DNA from: Paenibacillus sp. yr247
Lineage (GTDB): Bacteria > Bacillota > Bacilli > Paenibacillales > NBRC-103111
NCBI RefSeq assembly: GCF_900103825.1
Contig: NZ_FNIF01000010.1
Span: forward strand, 62,001-126,000
DNA length: 64,000 bases
Direction of reading: 5' to 3'
Within the stretch, counting starts at the first letter, position 1. The number at the start of each line of letters is the position of its first letter. The position numbers were made by a program, and so were the translations under genes. The notes beneath the pieces were generated by a model. That model saw only the letters and a program-made list of their open reading frames with translations. It was not told the origin of the DNA and did not search any database. Shown here in pieces: positions 5,967 to 45,497 of this stretch.

Positions 5967-6061
5967 TTAAAATCATCTCCTTATGTAGAGGAATCAATCA
6001 ATCATTTGCATATCCTCAGATAATTATCTCACTAATTACAAAAGAAGAAAACCTGCACTTC

Positions 6062-6142
6062 ACTAACCTGCTCGTTACTTTAATTAACAAAAAAAGGAGC
6101 TGCCACGAGGCAAGCTCCTTCACTATCGTTCTGCGTAAGTTG
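6062..6142. repeat. Palindromic intergenic repeat, copy B
   Basis: The left end CCTGCTCGTTACTTTAAT, hairpin AGGAGCTGCC...GGCAAGCTCCT, and right end ACTATCGTTCTGCGTAAG are present in order. It is one of the most complete copies. Immediately to its right, base composition changes to the GC-richer AraC-PhyH block. Confidence 0.7.
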
Positions 6143-6250
6143 AACTGTATCTCTCATAAAGGTCTTTTCATGTCACACCAGTCTCGCCATTATTGAAAAA
6201 CTGCAGGCGGAGGCGGAAGAGTAGGAGGAATTTTAATTAATACTTCCTAC

Positions 6251-8691: not shown

Positions 8692-8735
8692 CTCGCACCC
8701 TTCCCCTTTATTAATTCATAATCTAATAATACTCC

Positions 8736-8813
8736 ATTAACCTGCCCGTTACTTCAATGAAATCATAAAAGGAGCTGCCTCAATACAGCTCCTCCACTAT
8801 AGTTTTTCGTTAT
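8736..8813. repeat. Palindromic intergenic repeat, copy C
   Basis: The left end TTAACCTGCCCGTTACTTC, hairpin AGGAGCTGCC...ACAGCTCCT and right end ACTATAGTTTTTCGTTAT are all present. It lies between the stop of the DUF6454 gene (8852) and the TTG start of the next gene (8691). On the minus strand the hairpin is followed by TTTT, so it can double as a terminator. Confidence 0.7.
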
Positions 8814-8851
8814 CCATCCATGCCCCTACGGGGCACCACGGAACTGTAAGA

Positions 8852-9715
8852 TTATAGTTTATTTTTCAAATTGTTTGTTTCATATATCAACATAGACCCG
8901 TGATCGTCATCCGGTACAGCATAAAGCCGCAGCTCTTGACCGGCGTTCTCCATGAACACCGGATTACGGGTAATCACGTGTCCTTGCGGAGAAAACTCAG
9001 TGATGGGTGTTTCATGAATCGTATCCAACGTATTCATGTCTATCAGGGCTAATCCACCTAGCTCGTACGGCTCGGTGCGATTTGCAGGATTGGTCAGCTC
9101 AGAGATACCGCTCAAAATCATTTTCCCTTCGCCTACATAATGACCATCTTGATAATCTACAAAATGACTCGAGTTTTCTTTCACAAGTAGCTGCGTCCCA
9201 TTTTGGTTCCATTCATAGAACTTACGTGAGCCCCAGCTGTTACCTACTAGCTTTCCATTTTGACCGTCACGGACCAATCCTCCGATATGATCATGAACTC
9301 GAAACGATTCTTCTGCTTTCATAGTCTTAGGATCTACTTTGTAAACAATAGATTCGCTATTGGGTCGGTATTCGGCGACAGGTACCCAAATATTATTGCC
9401 GTCAAAATCAATGCCGCCTGGGTGATAGATGTTCCCTTCACCCAAAGGCATATCATTCACAAGCTTCCCCTGTTTATCAAAGACAAATAAGTGACCGATT
9501 CCCTTTCCAGGAGTGCGGTCATAACCGTGCTGGTGCTGGTCATATTTAACAGGCTTTTCAATAAGTTCAACCGAGGACAAATAAAAGAGGTCCCCGATTC
9601 GAACCATTCCTTGTGAGTGGTAATTGTTAAATTGTAGATCAATTCTATCTTTTTGCTCCCATTTCGTGTTGCGTGTAAGATTTCGGAACTGAGAGATTAG
9701 TTTCTGATTATCCAT
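8852..9715 (-). CDS. DUF6454 family protein (beta-propeller-like)
   Basis: The best start is ATG 9715, with GGAAGG 8 nt upstream; a TTG 18 nt earlier lacks its own site. The 287-residue protein shows the DUF6454 pattern: YHSQGMVRIGDLFYLSSVEL, GYDRTPGKGIGHLFVFD, YHPGGIDFDGNNIWVPVAEY, HDHIGGLVRDG and WGSRKFYEW. Repeated blade-like strands suggest a beta-propeller. No enzyme activity is established for this family to my knowledge, and no signal peptide is seen. It is bounded by repeat copies M (17 nt before the start) and C (after the stop). Confidence 0.8.
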   Translation of the reverse strand: MDNQKLISQFRNLTRNTKWEQKDRIDLQFNNYHSQGMVRIGDLFYLSSVELIEKPVKYDQHQHGYDRTPGKGIGHLFVFDKQGKLVNDMPLGEGNIYHPGGIDFDGNNIWVPVAEYRPNSESIVYKVDPKTMKAEESFRVHDHIGGLVRDGQNGKLVGNSWGSRKFYEWNQNGTQLLVKENSSHFVDYQDGHYVGEGKMILSGISELTNPANRTEPYELGGLALIDMNTLDTIHETPITEFSPQGHVITRNPVFMENAGQELRLYAVPDDDHGSMLIYETNNLKNKL

Positions 9716-9731
9716 ATGTGTTTGTCCTTCC

Positions 9732-9778
9732 AAAGTTAAACTGGGGTTTATTGATTTGGGCTATTGTTTCTCGTTAGC
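9732..9778. repeat. Short repeat lacking the central hairpin, copy M
   Basis: The right end CTATTGTTTCTCGTTAGC (9761-9778) and left end GTTAAACTGGGGTTTATTG match the repeat family, but the central stem-loop is missing. It directly follows the degraded YdcF end of the chimeric gene, and its left edge lies 17 nt from the start of the DUF6454 gene. Confidence 0.55.
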
Positions 9779-9782
9779 GTAG

Positions 9783-10592
9783 CTAGCCATATGATCCGAT
9801 TTGGAGTATAGCGGGCCTGAAATATTTCCCTACCTTCTCAAGCTCATTCATTACGTATCTTATTCTATCTTCATCTAGAAACCAGTTATCCTTGGCAGTA
9901 CCTGTCTTGTCAATCACCGGACTTACATAAAAAATTGTCTCTCTTGGAAAAATAATTTGATATGTTAAAGTGCTCGCCGTGCGTGATAGTTTTTACAAAC
10001 CAACACTAAAAACACTAATTTTTTAGGTGTGTTGATGTAATACTTTCAAAGAGAATCGTGCATTTTCAAAAGTATTAGTTGCTTTATCTTCTTGAAGTAT
10101 TGCTTCTGGAGGGACGCCTAACGATACCCCGACATTTCGCAAAAACTCCCATTCAGTTGTTTCTACATGTGGTGTGGCACCAACCTCGCTTAATTCAGAT
10201 ATATCCGCCCATTTATATTCTGAATGTTCATAACTAAGTTTTATCTCCGCATCCTTTGGTAAGGAACAGCGAAATATTCCAACTTGTGCGTTAATACTAC
10301 TATGATAATAAAATCCCGTTAATGCAGCATCCTTAACTTCTATCCCAAGTTCTTCGCGACATTCTCGAAATAACGCTTCATGAATCGTTTCACCAGCATC
10401 TACACCACCACCAGGTAAACTCCACCCCTTATTTCCATATGTTCGCTTTAACAGAAGTATTTGACTCTCGGAATTTGATATTATAGCAAGAATGCCAAAT
10501 CCAAAAGTAACAAAACCCACTAATATCCTCTCCATTTCAACTCTCTGAGTAATCGTCAATTTCAGTTTCAATTCTTTTTTATAATACCACAT
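9783..10592 (-). pseudogene. Chimeric gene: Nudix hydrolase fused to frameshifted YdcF (DUF218) tail
   Basis: The open part (10023-10592, 189 codons) starts with a complete Nudix domain. Its box is GGVDAGE, seven residues, then RECREELGI, where metal-dependent hydrolysis of nucleotide-type substrates occurs in the family. After ISELSEVGATPH the sequence switches to the middle of a YdcF/DUF218 protein (VETTEWEFLRNVGVS, EDKATNTFENARFSL), which is not part of any Nudix fold. The reading frame then stops. YdcF sequence continues downstream in two other frames (VLVCKNYHARRAL, then FYVSPVIDKTGTAKDNWF and VMNELEKVGKYFRPA) to a stop at 9783. The Nudix half may still be made; the YdcF half is dead. 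Confidence 0.8.
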
Positions 10593-10601
10593 ATTGTAAG
10601 T

Positions 10602-10653
10602 ATCCTGCCCGTTACATTAATAAACAAAAGAGGAGCTGCCGCGTTCCGTTAGC
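10602..10653. repeat. Truncated repeat, copy D
   Basis: The left end ATCCTGCCCGTTACATTAAT and one hairpin arm (AGGAGCTGCC) are followed directly by GTTCCGTTAGC, so the second arm is deleted. It lies just upstream of the Nudix start codon. Confidence 0.5.
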
Positions 10654-10741
10654 AAAACCGGATCCACCCCTTAGATAGGCGTAACGAAGGAAATAGAGGG
10701 CTCAGACCCGTTGAGACATGGGAGTGAAAACCTCCAGGGGC

Positions 10742-25791: not shown

Positions 25792-25932
25792 CAACAAGAC
25801 AAGACTCCGTCAAGCTATGGATAAAATGAATGTTTCAAAATGAAATACAAATTTGATCCCATAGAATACATTTATTATCTAAAATAAGCTCAGGGTCATC
25901 TGAGTGTAGATTATGTAAATGTTTATTGGAGC

Positions 25933-26008
25933 ATAACTGCCATTTAGTTTAATAAACAAAAGAGGAGCTGCCGCATAGCATGCCCCTCAACTATGGTTCT
26001 TCGTTAGC
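25933..26008. repeat. Palindromic intergenic repeat, copy F
   Basis: The left end ATAACTGCCATTTAGTTTAAT, hairpin arm AGGAGCTGCC with partner GCCCCT, and right end ACTATGGTTCTTCGTTAGC are present. It begins 14 nt after the stop of the 239-residue gene at 26022. Confidence 0.65.
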
Positions 26009-26021
26009 TCAAATTTTTGAG

Positions 26022-38222: not shown

Positions 38223-41200
38223 TTAACGTTCGGATGTCCGTCCCGGGATATCGGCCGAGTAGAGGATTTCATTGTTGGAATAGATGACCGCGTAGCTGTC
38301 CGCCATTCCTTCTTTGACGGCGATCGCACGAACGACGTCGCCTTGTTTCACGTTAATGGGCCTTGCATAGATCTCGCTGTCCTTGGTCGGCAGTGAGCCA
38401 TCCGTCGTGTAATGAATGACGGCTCCGGCGATAGTCGTCGACAGCTTGATCGCATGCGGCTTGCCCTGATGTCCGCTATCTCCGTCGATGACGGGAGCGG
38501 CGACTTTGCCTGTAATCGGAACCGCATTTGTTTTTTCCAACTGGAACCAGTCCAAGTTGGTGCCGTCCCCGAGAATCGTGAGTCGGATCGTCTGTGTGCC
38601 GCCGTTCAACTGCACGATATCCGTGACTTGCGTATAGTTCCCCCAGCCGCCGGTGCCCGGCAGTCCTGTCTTCGCTTTCATTTGTCCGCCGGAAGCGAGG
38701 GACATGGACACTCCGCTTTGTGCCGTCGCATAGCGGTATTTTACCGCATAATAACCGGTTTCGGGCACGGTAATCAAGTAATCCATGTAGGTTCCCGCTA
38801 CAGTATATCCGAGGTTGTTGACCTCTCCCCCATACTGGATCACATTCTGACCAGCTTGGGTAAAGCTCTCAGCCTCTACCTTCAGGATACCGTCCATTCC
38901 CGCCATTTGCGGTAGCACCGCTTGAACGTCTATCTCCTGCAGGTCGAATGCGCCGACGCTGCCGGCGATCTGGAGCGTCTGGACTCCGGCTTTCAAATCA
39001 ACCGTCGTGCGAGCCCCGATCCAGGCACTCGATCCGGAAAGGGACGGGATGGTGACGGTGACGGGAGACACGCCTTCCGGGGAAATCCGGAAGCTGCTTC
39101 CGTTCGGCGACTTGGCCTTGACCGTGAAAGCATATTTGCCTTCTACCGGAACGTTGATCTTGAAATCCGCCCAGTCGCCCGGACCGAAGCCGACGATGCT
39201 GCCTGCTCCCGCGGTTACACCTGTCAGCTGGTAATAATCGTCGGAGGTGATGGTGCCCGGAAGCGACTTAGGATTCGTCTTGTAGACGGTTCCTTGCAAA
39301 TTCACGCTCGCCGACAGCGTCTCACCGCCGGTCGAATCGGAATAAGAGGAAGGCGGTACGTTAAGCGTGAGCCTCAAGTTTCCGTAATAAGGCGTCCCGT
39401 TCCAAGCCAGCTTGACGGCAACCTGATTCGGATTCCCGTACGTCAAGTCGGTCACGGTCGGGTTACCGTACGTCACGCCAGTCACGGTGATGCCCTTGGC
39501 GGCCGCTTCCCCCATAATCGTAATCCGGCCCAACTGGTCCGGAACGAAGGTTCCGCCCGCAAGCTTCAACAGGACGGTTTTGCCGTCCACGCCGTAATCC
39601 AGCGTTTCCGGTTCCGCCGTCAGCACCGGAGTTTTGTCCGGAACGGACGGATCGACCAATCGATTCCAACGATACGTAGCGACCGATTTCGCCGGCAACT
39701 TCGCCGCGATCTGCGTGCCGTCGCTCACCAGCTTGAACGTCTGCTCGACATTCGTCTGATTGATCACGACCGTGACGATCCTTTTCTTGTCCGGACTCAG
39801 GAAGGAAATGTTCGTGACCTTGTCTTTTGAGCCGTAATCGCTGTTGATCCGGATATACCCAGGCTCCACAAATTTGGTGAAGTGGCCCAGGAAGTAATAT
39901 TCCGGCGTCATCCAGTAGTTGTTGCGGTCGGACGAATCCTGGATGAGCAACGTCGGGTCCGGCGTGCCGACCCACTGATGCGTGGCAATGTCGCTGTCGA
40001 GCATTGCGACCCATGAATTATAGCTTCTGGCCCAGTTGCGGAAATATTGGGCGATCCGGTCCGTACCTTCCGTTCCCCATACTGCGCGTTCCGTCATATA
40101 CACGTTCTTGTCGGGGTACAGGTCGTGCAATTGGGACATCATCGCAATGTCTCCGCCATAGTCGTGGAACGCCGTTCCGTCGACCGCGTCCCGGTACTCC
40201 GGCACAGCGAGCAGCGGGGCAGGATAGCTCATCGTATCTCCCGGATTATGGTCGAAGATCCACAGCTTCACGTTCAGACCCTCAGCTGCCAGCTTCATCT
40301 TCAGCAGCTTGGTCAGTTCGCCTTCCTGCTGCCACGGCATCCTCGTACTGGGATAATCGATTTCCAGCAGCGGTTCGTTCTGCAGCGTCATCGCATCGAT
40401 GTCGATCCCTTGGGCTTTATAAGCCTGGATGTATTTGACGAAATAATCGGCCAAGACCGGCAAATATTCGTCCTTAACCTGGCCGAGGATCATACTGTCC
40501 GTCGTCTTCATCCAACCCGGAGGACTCCAGGGAGAAGCGAAAATCTTCATGTCCGGATTGATGGCCTTCATCTTCTTCAACGCACCGACAATGCCATAAT
40601 CGATGTCCTTCTGAATCGAAAAATGCTCCAGCGTCGGGTCGGTCTGGCCCGGGGGCATGTCGTCATACGTATAGAACTTCTGTGCCGTAAAATCGGGCGT
40701 TCCGATCGTGACGCGCATCATGCTCATACCGATACCTTCCGTCTTGCTGGCCAGCTTCTTCAGCCATTCCTCCTGCTTGGCAGGCGACATCTTGACCAGG
40801 TTGTAAACCGTGGATTCTTCCATCGACGTTCCGAATCCCATCACCGACTGATATTGCTTGCGAGGATTAATGTTAATCGTCGTGGCGCCGGGATCGTTTC
40901 CTACGGCCGTGATATTCAGATTGGCCTGCTGTTCCAGCCTCTTGTCGCCTTCTTGCCAACGGGGGGCGTAGTACCATTTCTTGCTCTTCGAATCGCGTTC
41001 TGCGGTCACCCAGTTTTCCACGGCGCCGGCGGACACGACCGGCTGTAACGAAATGGCTTCGCCTCCGCTAATCGGCAAGGCCGCAGGGGAGAAGCTGACG
41101 GAACCGAACCAGTTTACATTTATGCCTCCCGCTTTAAGCACGAGCTTGATTTTTTGCACGCCCTGCGTTAGCGGGACGTTCTTCACCGTCGTCGTCTGCC

Positions 41201-43439
41201 AGTTCTGCCATCCTCCGGTGTTGTTAACGGTCAATTCTCCGATTTTAGTTCCGGAAGCGTTCAGGATATTGAAACCGGTATTGTCACCTAAACCCGCATG
41301 GCGGAAATCGATATCGAACGAGCCGGAGACGGGGACGTTAATCAAATACTCCATCCAGTCGCCCGGATCCGTCCATCCGACGTCTTTCCCGCCGCCGACA
41401 TCCGTCGTGGTCTCGGTTTGGATGCCTTGCTGGGTAATGAAATTTTCCGCCTCCACTTTCACGTACGGCGGCTTGCCCGGCTTTTCCGGAAGGGCCGGAA
41501 GGGCTGGCGTTTCCTTGATTTTGGTCAACCCGTAACCGTAGTCGAACAGGATGTATTTCGGATCCAAATTGCGTTGCCCGGCCTTCGGCACCGTATAAGC
41601 TTCGGTGTAGATCGGCCAGCGGACCGGCAGTTTGCCCGTAAAATCGTAGCTGCCGAACAGCACGTCGGCCACGCCTTGGCCTTCCGTGCCCGGAAGCCAT
41701 GCTTCCACAAGTCCGGCCATATCCGTAAGCTGATCATTGATGATCATCGGCCTCCCGGATACGAGCACGACAACCGCTGGAACTCCGGCATCCCGGACGT
41801 TCTTCAGCGTCGCCAGATCCTCCTCGTCCAGCTTCAGCGCGCCCAGATTATCGCCGTTCCCTTCCGCATACGGCGTCTCGCCGATCACAACGATGGCCGC
41901 GTCGTGACCCGCGGCTCCGCGGCCGTGCTTGTTGTAGGTCACGGTTTTCGTGCCGCCGACCGCATTCTTGATGCCCTCCAAAATAGTCGTTCCCGGCGTG
42001 ATGCTGCCAGACTTGCCCTGCCAAGTGATCGACCAGCCGCCCGACTGAAGACCGATATTGTCGGCGCTTTTACCGGCGACCAGAATCTTGTTCATGTTCT
42101 TCAATTGAGAAAGGATCGGCTGGCCGTTCACTCTATCGTTCTTCAAGAGAACAAGCGATTCCCGTACCGCCCGGCGGGCCAACGAACGGTTCGCATCCGA
42201 GCCGAACGCGGTCGCCAAATTCTCGTCGGTCATCGGATGCTCGAACACGCCCGATTCGAATTTGACGCGGAGGATCCGCGTCACCGCGTCATCGATACGG
42301 GACAACGCGATCTTGCCTTCATCCGCCAGCTGTTTCAGGTAAGTAATGCTGATTTTCCAGTCACTCGGTTCCATCAGCATGTCCACGCCCGCGTTGACCG
42401 CAACGCGAATTTGATCCTTCAGACCGCTCACGGGGTTGCTATCCCAGTCTTTCGTAATCTGTTGCACCCCGTTGTAATCCGTGATGACAAAACCGGTAAA
42501 GCCCAGCTGCCCGGATCCGGTTCCTTTAAGGGCGTCCGTCAGGATCCGTTTGTTGGCATGCATTTTGAGCCCTTGGATGCTGCTGTAGGAGACCATGACG
42601 GTTCTGGCGCCGGCGTCGATCGCCGCTTTGTACATCGGAAGATCCAAGTTCAGAACCTCCTGTTCCGTCATCATCGATACATTGCCCTGGTTGGCCCCAT
42701 TGTCCGTCAGACCTTCCCCGAGAAAATGCTTCGCGGTGGCGACCACCTTATCGCTGCTTTTCAGATCTTCGCGCGTTTGGCCTTGAAGCCCTTGGATGTA
42801 AGCGCTGCCCATTTGTGCCGCCAGAGACTGGTTATCGCCGAAACCTTCATAAGAACGGCCCCAACGGACATCCTGTGGGTCCGCGATCGTAGGGGCGAAA
42901 GCCCAGTTCGTGCCGGCTGCCTTGACTTCCTTCGCTGACGCTGCCCCGATTTGCCGGACCAGCTCCGGATCCCTCGTCGCGCCTAGCCCGATATTATGAG
43001 GGAACAAGGTCGCCCCGATCAGGTTGTTGTTCCCATGAACGGCGTCGACGCCGTACAGAATGGGGATCCCCAAATTCGTGGATAGTGCAGCGGCTTGATA
43101 GGAATCCACCAAATCCGCCCACTTTTCCCTTGTGCTGTCTGCCTGTTTACCGTTCGGGAAAGAACCGCCTCCGCTCAGAACGGAGCCGAGCTTGTACGTA
43201 TGTACGTCTTCCGGCGTAACTGATGCCCTCTCCGCCTGCACCATTTGCCCGACTTTTTCCTCCAGCGTCATCCTGGACAGCAGGTCGGCTATGCGGGTTT
43301 CAACCGGGAGGGAAGCGTCATAGTAGGGATGAAGTGCTGATTTAGAAGGTGCGGCAGCGGTCGCCACGGGCACTAAACCCGCCATCGTCGAACAGACAAG
43401 CGCAATGGCCATTGTAGCTGAAATTTTACGTTTCAACAT
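38223..43439 (-). CDS. Secreted multidomain glycosidase: GH3-CBM6-GH30-CBM-CBM6-CHB_HEX_C
   Basis: This 1738-residue protein starts at ATG 43439 behind AAGGAGG. A Sec signal peptide covers residues 1-30. GH3 spans about 45-640: KHF at 237-239, likely nucleophile D321 in FVITDYNG, possible acid/base E526 in PYAEGNGD. A CBM6-like domain covers 658-785. GH30 spans about 850-1260 with acid/base E1022 (TLQNEP) and nucleophile E1117 (YMTERAVWG). An Ig-like region (1270-1385), two CBM6-like domains (1395-1505, 1517-1636) and a CHB_HEX_C-like end (1645-1720) follow. It probably degrades a branched beta-glucan or similar polymer outside the cell. The gene is GC-richer than its flanks, suggesting transfer. 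Long antisense frames in it are artefacts of composition. Confidence 0.92.
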   Translation of the reverse strand: MLKRKISATMAIALVCSTMAGLVPVATAAAPSKSALHPYYDASLPVETRIADLLSRMTLEEKVGQMVQAERASVTPEDVHTYKLGSVLSGGGSFPNGKQADSTREKWADLVDSYQAAALSTNLGIPILYGVDAVHGNNNLIGATLFPHNIGLGATRDPELVRQIGAASAKEVKAAGTNWAFAPTIADPQDVRWGRSYEGFGDNQSLAAQMGSAYIQGLQGQTREDLKSSDKVVATAKHFLGEGLTDNGANQGNVSMMTEQEVLNLDLPMYKAAIDAGARTVMVSYSSIQGLKMHANKRILTDALKGTGSGQLGFTGFVITDYNGVQQITKDWDSNPVSGLKDQIRVAVNAGVDMLMEPSDWKISITYLKQLADEGKIALSRIDDAVTRILRVKFESGVFEHPMTDENLATAFGSDANRSLARRAVRESLVLLKNDRVNGQPILSQLKNMNKILVAGKSADNIGLQSGGWSITWQGKSGSITPGTTILEGIKNAVGGTKTVTYNKHGRGAAGHDAAIVVIGETPYAEGNGDNLGALKLDEEDLATLKNVRDAGVPAVVVLVSGRPMIINDQLTDMAGLVEAWLPGTEGQGVADVLFGSYDFTGKLPVRWPIYTEAYTVPKAGQRNLDPKYILFDYGYGLTKIKETPALPALPEKPGKPPYVKVEAENFITQQGIQTETTTDVGGGKDVGWTDPGDWMEYLINVPVSGSFDIDFRHAGLGDNTGFNILNASGTKIGELTVNNTGGWQNWQTTTVKNVPLTQGVQKIKLVLKAGGINVNWFGSVSFSPAALPISGGEAISLQPVVSAGAVENWVTAERDSKSKKWYYAPRWQEGDKRLEQQANLNITAVGNDPGATTININPRKQYQSVMGFGTSMEESTVYNLVKMSPAKQEEWLKKLASKTEGIGMSMMRVTIGTPDFTAQKFYTYDDMPPGQTDPTLEHFSIQKDIDYGIVGALKKMKAINPDMKIFASPWSPPGWMKTTDSMILGQVKDEYLPVLADYFVKYIQAYKAQGIDIDAMTLQNEPLLEIDYPSTRMPWQQEGELTKLLKMKLAAEGLNVKLWIFDHNPGDTMSYPAPLLAVPEYRDAVDGTAFHDYGGDIAMMSQLHDLYPDKNVYMTERAVWGTEGTDRIAQYFRNWARSYNSWVAMLDSDIATHQWVGTPDPTLLIQDSSDRNNYWMTPEYYFLGHFTKFVEPGYIRINSDYGSKDKVTNISFLSPDKKRIVTVVINQTNVEQTFKLVSDGTQIAAKLPAKSVATYRWNRLVDPSVPDKTPVLTAEPETLDYGVDGKTVLLKLAGGTFVPDQLGRITIMGEAAAKGITVTGVTYGNPTVTDLTYGNPNQVAVKLAWNGTPYYGNLRLTLNVPPSSYSDSTGGETLSASVNLQGTVYKTNPKSLPGTITSDDYYQLTGVTAGAGSIVGFGPGDWADFKINVPVEGKYAFTVKAKSPNGSSFRISPEGVSPVTVTIPSLSGSSAWIGARTTVDLKAGVQTLQIAGSVGAFDLQEIDVQAVLPQMAGMDGILKVEAESFTQAGQNVIQYGGEVNNLGYTVAGTYMDYLITVPETGYYAVKYRYATAQSGVSMSLASGGQMKAKTGLPGTGGWGNYTQVTDIVQLNGGTQTIRLTILGDGTNLDWFQLEKTNAVPITGKVAAPVIDGDSGHQGKPHAIKLSTTIAGAVIHYTTDGSLPTKDSEIYARPINVKQGDVVRAIAVKEGMADSYAVIYSNNEILYSADIPGRTSER

Positions 43440-44224: not shown

Positions 44225-44262
44225 GTGACGCATTTGCCTAAGTACTATCGTCGCCGTTAGTG
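44225..44262. repeat. Short repeat, copy J
   Basis: The right end ACTATCGTCGCCGTTAGTG (44244-44262) matches the family; the hairpin is missing. It lies between the YdcF remnant and the APH-VOC chimera, directly after the stop at 44263. Confidence 0.5.
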
Positions 44263-44557
44263 TTACGAATTATTGTTTGAACCAATTTGATATATAGCGC
44301 GCCTAAAATATTTCCCTACCTTTTCAAGCTCATTCATTACGAAGGTTATTTCACAGAAATTCCCATTCAGTTGTTTCTACATGTGGGGTGGCCCCGCCAG
44401 AGGGTAGGATAAACGGAGCGATGTCTTGATGATATAACATTGCCGCTCTTTCCATTAATTGCGGGTGACTTGCACCTGGAATTAAAATAACATCTGAATG
44501 ACCTAACTCCGATTCGAAAAACATAAAATCGCTAATACAGTCAAAGGGAAAAGACAT
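44263..44557 (-). pseudogene. YdcF (DUF218) gene with internal deletion
   Basis: It starts at ATG 44557 with a strong GGGGAGG site. Residues 1-68 are a normal YdcF N-terminus (DVILIPGASHPQLMERAAML, ILPSGGATPHVETTEWEFL) and then a stop appears. Downstream, in another frame, the last part of the same family follows (VMNELEKVGKYFRRAIYQIG) up to 44263. The central 100 or so residues are gone. Both flanks of the deletion share near-identical DNA with the Nudix-YdcF chimera at 9783-10180, so the two loci descend from one gene. Confidence 0.75.
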
Positions 44558-44627
44558 AGTAATACCTCCCCTAATGGAACCACAAACCCATTATATACCA
44601 AGCCGGTTGCTATTTGGCGAACTAAAG

Positions 44628-44720
44628 ATAACTGCCCTTCAACGATCTGAAGCAGTCGCCATAGCGCCTGCTCCAGTTATAATTATTTCGCTAATGTTCA
44701 ACTACAGTTTTCCGTTAGCG
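44628..44720. repeat. Palindromic intergenic repeat, copy H
   Basis: The left end ATAACTGCCCTTCAAC, a weak GAAGCAG...CTGCTCC stem and the right end AACTACAGTTTTCCGTTAGC are present. It starts 7 nt after the SGNH hydrolase stop and ends about 70 nt before the YdcF remnant start. Confidence 0.55.
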
Positions 44721-44726
44721 AAACGG

Positions 44727-45497
44727 TCAATTTAGTTTTATAGCCTCTGAATTAGGCTTGACCAGCTGGCCGGATATTTTCTGAGCGATTGCATCGGCGA
44801 TCGCCCGGTAGCCTGCTTCATTCGGATGGATTGTATCCTGCATGAAAGGATGCTCCTTCCGAACCTCACGTCCAAATACGAGGCTGGGGATATCGAGAAT
44901 ATCGACACGTGGATCATAGTCTCGGAAGCTATGATACACGTCCCAAAGTTGATCGGAGTAAAGCTGCGCGTTCTCAATATCTAGATGAATATAGCTCCAG
45001 CGATTTACTGACAAGAATGGATTCGGTATGCGTAGCAACACCCCACCGTGCGTTTCCTTCAAGAGCCTGTCCACGACGAGCTTCAGATCGGCTTTAATCT
45101 GCGTAGGGCTGCTTTCCCGAATGTCGTTGATCCCATAAGAAACGACATACAAGTCTGCCTGGTCTTGAATCACATTGTCGAGAGTATTGCCGTGGGTAGC
45201 GATTTGGTTAACAAAATGATGCAGCGTATTGCCGCTGGAGCCGCGGTTGCGGATTCGTGCCCCTTCCAGAACGCCTCCGGGAGCCCCATAGATCTCTGCC
45301 AGCTGTTGATATAGTCCCTGCGCCGCTTCTGTCGTACTATCGCCGACGAAGTTGATGAGCTTACCTGATTTGGAGCTCTGATAGAACGTTTGAATCGATT
45401 CGTCCGTCTTGCCGAAGGACGAAACAGGAAGCGGCAGCGAGAAGATCAAGGAGAACGCCAAACCGAGCTTCCACCAGTTCATTCTGCAATGCATCAT
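44727..45497 (-). CDS. SGNH/GDSL-family hydrolase, exported
   Basis: The best start is ATG 45497, 9 nt after AAAGGA. Residues 1-30 form a signal peptide (WWKLGLAFSLIFSLPLPVSS). SGNH blocks follow: block I FVGDSTTEAAQ (Ser nucleophile), block II Gly in RNRGSSGNT, block III GIND, and block V DTIHPN with Asp and His. The enzyme is a likely secreted esterase, perhaps a carbohydrate deacetylase. It is bounded downstream by repeat H. Substrate unknown. Confidence 0.85.
   Translation of the reverse strand: MMHCRMNWWKLGLAFSLIFSLPLPVSSFGKTDESIQTFYQSSKSGKLINFVGDSTTEAAQGLYQQLAEIYGAPGGVLEGARIRNRGSSGNTLHHFVNQIATHGNTLDNVIQDQADLYVVSYGINDIRESSPTQIKADLKLVVDRLLKETHGGVLLRIPNPFLSVNRWSYIHLDIENAQLYSDQLWDVYHSFRDYDPRVDILDIPSLVFGREVRKEHPFMQDTIHPNEAGYRAIADAIAQKISGQLVKPNSEAIKLN

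Follow-up and report, generated by a model that had tools for sequence, protein, structure and literature searches.

A Nudix-YdcF reading frame in Paenibacillus as a probable decayed cassette of a TAACG-junction module system

The window analyzed here, a stretch of 64,000 nucleotides from the genome of Paenibacillus sp. yr247, contains a reading frame in which a Nudix hydrolase runs into part of a YdcF protein. It is very probable that this frame is a decayed two-gene cassette, which belongs to a genome-wide system of modules with TAACG junctions in Paenibacillus and other Bacilli and in which modules would be exchanged by an enzyme of the Xer/IntI type.

The Nudix-YdcF reading frame

The reading frame encodes 189 aa and occupies 10592-10023 on the minus strand. 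Pfam NUDIX matched residues 33-143 of this ORF, 10023-10592(-), with 72.2 bits and DUF218 matched residues 138-185 (profile positions 33-80, 34.4 bits, cut-off 27.6). As the sequence-only reading had proposed, the Nudix domain continues into the middle of YdcF/DUF218; the joint lies at window positions 10182/10181. YdcF-type sequence in other frames follows downstream of the fused ORF as far as 9783, and alignment to intact YdcF confirmed this part of the reading as well. A YdcF copy had also been placed near 44.4 kb. It is present at 44557-44278(-), as a remnant that follows YdcF to WEFL, lacks about 272 bp and resumes with VMNELEKVGKYF. Judged by alignment, this copy is a separate YdcF unit, with a deletion at another place than that of the fused copy. 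Both YdcF copies are flanked by repeated cassette junctions. The features of the window are given below; G028 and G016 are two relatives, represented by the loci L235 (G028) and L236 and L237 (G016), and R1 is a profile built from 29 junction-hairpin-junction stretches.

10616..10652, minus: degenerate upstream hairpin/terminator module with the preceding CTAACG (GCTAACGGAACGCGGCAGCTCCTC...); R1 match 10591-10664, E 3.2e-5; repeated elsewhere in the genome
10605..10615, minus: cassette entry junction GTAACGGGCAG; the module starts after TAAC(G), the start TAACGGGCAGGATACTTACAATATG is common to G028 and G016, and the upstream DNA differs
10182..10592, minus: Nudix gene with its 3' end removed by the deletion; Pfam NUDIX; 91% DNA identity to the intact G028 gene
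10181..10182, minus: deletion joint, from the alignment to L235
10023..10181, minus: middle part of YdcF, in frame with Nudix, with a premature stop; DUF218 match and alignment
9783..10022, minus: C-terminal YdcF remnant in shifted frames; alignment to intact G028/G016 YdcF
9759..9777, minus: cassette exit junction CTAACGAGAAACAATAGCC; module end CTAAC(G) at 9777-9772; window, G028 and G016 agree as far as GCTAACG and then have three different followers
8852..9733, minus: next downstream module, a DUF6454 gene (Pfam PF20055, 257 bits) between junctions at 9772 and about 8813
8728..8825, minus: junction, hairpin module, junction; R1 match, E 6.6e-12
6054..6151, minus: junction, hairpin module, junction; R1 match, E 5.7e-14
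25923..26019, minus: junction, hairpin module, junction; R1 match, E 5.8e-10
44618..44730, minus: junction plus hairpin preceding the second YdcF cassette; R1 match, E 7.3e-5
44278..44557, minus: gene of a second, separate YdcF cassette, which has lost about 272 bp internally; 44570-44348 corresponds to L236:6077-6299 and 44350-44276 to L236:6569-6643
44241..44272, minus: junction at the exit of the second YdcF cassette, CACTAACGGCGACGATAGT; R1 matches weakly (E 0.9), motif seen directly

An intact two-gene unit in relatives

A search of 30 genomes of the genus revealed no joined Nudix-YdcF form in strains other than that of the window; tandem genes were found instead. In G028 and at two loci of G016, a Nudix gene is directly followed by ydcF as a single unit with 83-91% DNA identity. 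The Nudix proteins are about 80% identical to the window copy at the better loci and 71% at the second G016 locus, and the YdcF proteins of G028 and G016 are 82-91% identical to that of the window over the matched stretch. Where the copies are intact, in G028 and at the first G016 locus, about 46 bp separate the two genes, which lie in different frames, with 152 codons for Nudix (G028) and 191 codons for YdcF (G028/G016). The genes of the second G016 locus contain stops or frameshifts.

The alignment to the relatives falls into two parts. Window positions 10614-10182 correspond to L235 6628-7059 (91% DNA identity) and positions 10182-9755 to L235 7342-7769 (90%), and the same two-part alignment was obtained with L236 and L237 (83-90%). 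By a single deletion the window copy lost 283 bp compared to G028 and 282 bp compared to G016. The deletion ends have essentially one base in common; window position 10182 aligns to L235:7059 as well as to L235:7342. The deletion happens to bring Nudix and YdcF into one frame, and further indels disrupt the YdcF C-terminus. Since the intact tandem unit of the relatives differs from it by the 283-bp deletion and the frameshifts, the comparison shows the fused ORF to be a predicted pseudogene in decay, derived from a two-gene mobile cassette by the internal deletion and frameshifting. The unit starts with TAACGGGCAGGATACTTACAATATG and ends with TACGCTAACG in the window as well as in G028 and at the first G016 locus, and the flanking DNA is different in each. 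Because the neighbours differ on both sides in three genomes and the break lies at TAACG, the Nudix-YdcF unit itself is a predicted mobile cassette.

The ORF is indeed a joint of two genes, and these are cassette-like, as had been read from the window. The accompanying proposal, that two separate cassettes recombined at a short patch of similarity and so produced the fusion, is very improbable. Nudix-alone and YdcF-alone matches in other genomes of the genus speak for it, and the genes may also travel separately, but one locus of G028 and two of G016 already carry Nudix and YdcF side by side, and either side of the gap matches them at 83-91% DNA identity. The joint has no such patch in the Nudix partner, and the supposed crossover patch GGTGCCACACC/GGGGCCACCCC turned out to be merely the same codons of two YdcF homologues. 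We consider it just as improbable that a new functional Nudix-YdcF protein has arisen: the joint is in frame and the Nudix domain is nearly complete, but the YdcF domain is cut after about 50 residues, its C-terminal half is frameshifted and the joined form has no second example among the 30 genomes. We also rejected the idea that a 34-kb element had split a single ydcF gene, with both halves on the same strand and a direct repeat, since identity between the copies is only about 90% and a YdcF end of its own is present in the 44.4-kb copy.

Junctions and hairpin modules

Gene modules and hairpin modules of about 60 bp are linked head to tail at many junctions throughout the genome. The junction is a dif-like site of about 28 bp with 11-bp arms (ATTNARCTAAC / GATAGTTNAAT) and a 6-7-bp centre. 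Logos of 369 and 243 distinct sites gave the left arm YRTTNARCTAAC and the right arm GATAGTTNAAT, which are mutually inverted repeats, and centres of GGGCAG (6 bp) or GRRGAAC (7 bp). Junctions of the GGGCAG type are built 11-6-11, which is the 28-bp format of dif modules, and those of the GRRGAAC type 11-7-11. Units of 250-2500 bp starting with GGGCAG contained a forward ORF of at least 60 codons in 187 of 202 cases, and the forward ORF was the longer one in 171.

The hairpin modules, often located between successive genes, were mostly 57-75 bp long, carried a T-run in 40% and had a mean folding z of -3.6 versus mononucleotide shuffles. RNAalifold returned 3 pairs only on the site alignment, because MAFFT had misaligned the variable hairpins. 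Rfam gave no relevant match in four cassette-bearing contigs. The only signal was a near-threshold T-box leader at L105:2063-2318 (89.4 bits, cut-off 93), in a cassette-bearing contig. The same 340-bp cassette end was observed at several contig ends (L088:1-341, L102 and L105); probably, therefore, the assembly of this genome is interrupted at repeated cassettes.

Exchange of modules at TAACG

Breaks were mapped by comparing 152 loci (1.88 Mb) all against all. The module 3' end was common and followed by divergence in 70 non-redundant pairs, and 23 pairs were the mirror image at the 5' end; these counts are comparisons and not independent events, as some loci recur in several pairs. Identity in the 3' pairs was about 0.95 up to TAACG, fell directly after it to 0.76, 0.64 and 0.53, and then reached background. 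Since the 3' and 5' pairs had been chosen for TAACG near the alignment end, all diverging alignment ends were used as a control. Here TAACG marked 81 of the 372 ends on the 3' side and 43 of the 384 on the 5' side, compared to a median of 1-2 for permuted versions of the pentamer. The two centres were unlike in 49 of the 70 exchanged pairs and common (6-nt centre) in 21. One gene module can precede various hairpin modules, or another gene module directly. As the aligned breaks show, modules are exchanged at the left-arm edge, with the break within TAACG or immediately behind it.

Orientation and distribution

Within loci, 615 of 619 junctions shared the majority orientation and 4 were against it. 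Compared with local GC skew, 359 junctions were on the leading strand and 3 were not (362 in total). In genome G002, junction strand and GC skew both flip at 5.15 Mb. The sites of closed genomes are spread over megabases on both replichores, with no single array beside attI. Chromosomal integrons are likewise oriented with replication (PMC11023631).

Of 81 relatives, 52 gave R1 matches, among them every one of the 30 genomes of the same genus, and the other 29 gave none, with at most 49 candidates scored per genome. Among 300 genomes of the class Bacilli, 42 had matches. An exact pattern with 19 specified bases was scanned over 84,980 species and gave at least 118 stretches; the 80 loci listed were all from Bacilli and include Paenibacillus, Cohnella, Neobacillus, Lederbergia, Cytobacillus, Alicyclobacillus, Terrihalobacillus and others. 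Viral contigs searched for the cassette system gave 2 matches only. A published description of a TAACG cassette system of Bacilli was not found in the open-access literature. Apparently, this is a large, undescribed family of mobile cassettes in Paenibacillus and other Bacilli.

Candidate recombinases

No match to the integron integrase model TIGR02249 above 265 bits was found in 81 genomes (the genome of the window and relatives). Three Xer-type proteins are encoded in the genome of the window: XerD, XerS and a third, Xer-like one of 308 aa that scores below all curated cut-offs; a classical XerC was not recognised among its integrase-search matches. XerS and the third Xer-like protein are encoded about 10 kb apart (G000:C34:818718 and 828018; L113, L147). 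The 308-aa protein, at C34:828018, is the best candidate for the enzyme. Most genomes of the same genus have an orthologue with 82-93% identity, and other genera have a homologue with about 50%. At the threshold used, it is missing from the site-rich genomes G019, G021, G044 and G061, and it is also present in some site-free genomes. Its role as sole enzyme is unsupported, and phylogeny confounds the association between this protein and the sites.

Loci L153-L164 of the relatives encode tyrosine recombinases of 288-421 aa, the longer ones with an extra N-terminal part, and several are broken. Against the integron integrase model they reached 100-115 bits per half, with its middle part skipped. 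These IntI-like proteins were rejected as the enzyme: they also occur in site-free genomes, and outside G044 none of those examined has a convincing site within about 10 kb.

Proposed mechanism and comparison with known systems

Gene modules and short hairpin/terminator modules are thus joined head to tail by the inverted-arm junctions of about 28 bp. From the site architecture we infer a tyrosine recombinase of the Xer/IntI type, which would cut at the TAACG edge. Exchange would tolerate unlike centres and perhaps involve one strand only, with replication finishing it. Such a one-strand exchange would explain the near-universal co-orientation with the replication fork.

The system works like an integron or a pool of dif modules, yet departs from both in the features that define them. 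Like integron cassettes and chromosomal superintegrons, it comprises a promiscuous pool of small cassettes that keep a single orientation with respect to replication; hairpins lie between the genes, and the break falls in a short AAC/GTT core. That the junctions are true integron attC sites left without integrase (CALIN) is nevertheless unlikely. Cassettes of one or two genes with a hairpin between successive genes, a cassette-type content (Nudix, GNAT, DinB, APH, glyoxalase) and the orientation with replication seen in chromosomal integrons (PMC11023631) would all fit. However, attC core sites are inverted and broken at the 3' core only, whereas the TAACG cores at the two ends of the Bacilli hairpin are direct and the break is at the gene 3' end, so that the same gene has different hairpins after it. 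The hairpin is a separate exchangeable module here, and modules are dispersed on both replichores instead of forming one array beside an integrase. No IntI was found: none of the 81 genomes has an integrase over the TIGR02249 cut-off, although sites are present in all 30 genomes of the genus. Integrons are considered almost absent from Firmicutes, with one complete integron and a few CALIN (IntegronFinder 2.0, PMC9024848).

Dif modules moved by the host XerC/XerD are a possible but doubtful explanation. The plasmid dif (pdif) modules of Acinetobacter also have sites of about 28 bp (11-6-11) at their ends, a break within the site and small gene modules that are shuffled. The right arm end GTTNAAT resembles the XerD arms TTATGTTAAAT (PMC13141974), Xer-type enzymes are encoded in the genome, and IS insertion occurs at the sites, as with ISAjo2-type elements near pdif (PMC10132070). 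In contrast to the dif modules, which alternate in orientation (C/D) and recombine at identical or near-identical spacers (PMC13141974), the modules of Bacilli all face one way, head to tail (615/619 sites in majority orientation), and unlike centres in 49 of 70 exchanged pairs are not expected of ordinary Xer exchange (PMC13141974). Further differences are the chromosomal location, the many copies per genome and the hairpin modules, besides the tolerance of unlike centres. Movement by a single-strand HUH (IS200/605-like) transposase is quite unlikely. Hairpins, a short fixed break sequence and a replication-linked orientation, all known for IS200/605, are in its favour, but inverted arms with a spacer, as at the junctions, are typical of tyrosine recombinases. 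Whether the TAACG-junction system represents a third kind of gene cassette besides integrons and dif modules, with dispersed, replication-oriented gene modules, separate terminator-hairpin modules, TAACG exchange and a putative recombinase, is in our judgement evenly balanced. A cassette pool of soil Bacilli in which each genome carries many modules, Nudix, acetyltransferase, aminoglycoside-phosphotransferase-like and adenylyltransferase-like genes among them, would amount to a large reservoir of gene exchange that has gone unrecognised. The reasons for which cassette systems follow replication could also be tested independently with it.

Cargo and insertion elements

Among the cassette proteins, 47 matched NUDIX, DJ-1/PfpI, pentapeptide, APH, DinB, GNAT, GrpB, VanZ, methyltransferase and glyoxalase families, among others, and one is aminoglycoside adenylyltransferase-like. 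Such cargo resembles that of integrons. PADLOC detected little defence content. In the genome of the window, an IS110-family element (Pfam Transposase_20) is inserted inside a cassette junction, after CTA, at L100:8140-9000 and also at L090:8769-8999. IS1111-attC and ISAjo2-type elements are likewise site-targeting, but the element here targets TAACG junctions and not attC or pdif. Elsewhere in the window, positions 38223-43439 encode a secreted-looking protein of 1738 aa, in which glycoside hydrolase and carbohydrate-binding parts are apparently combined in one chain.
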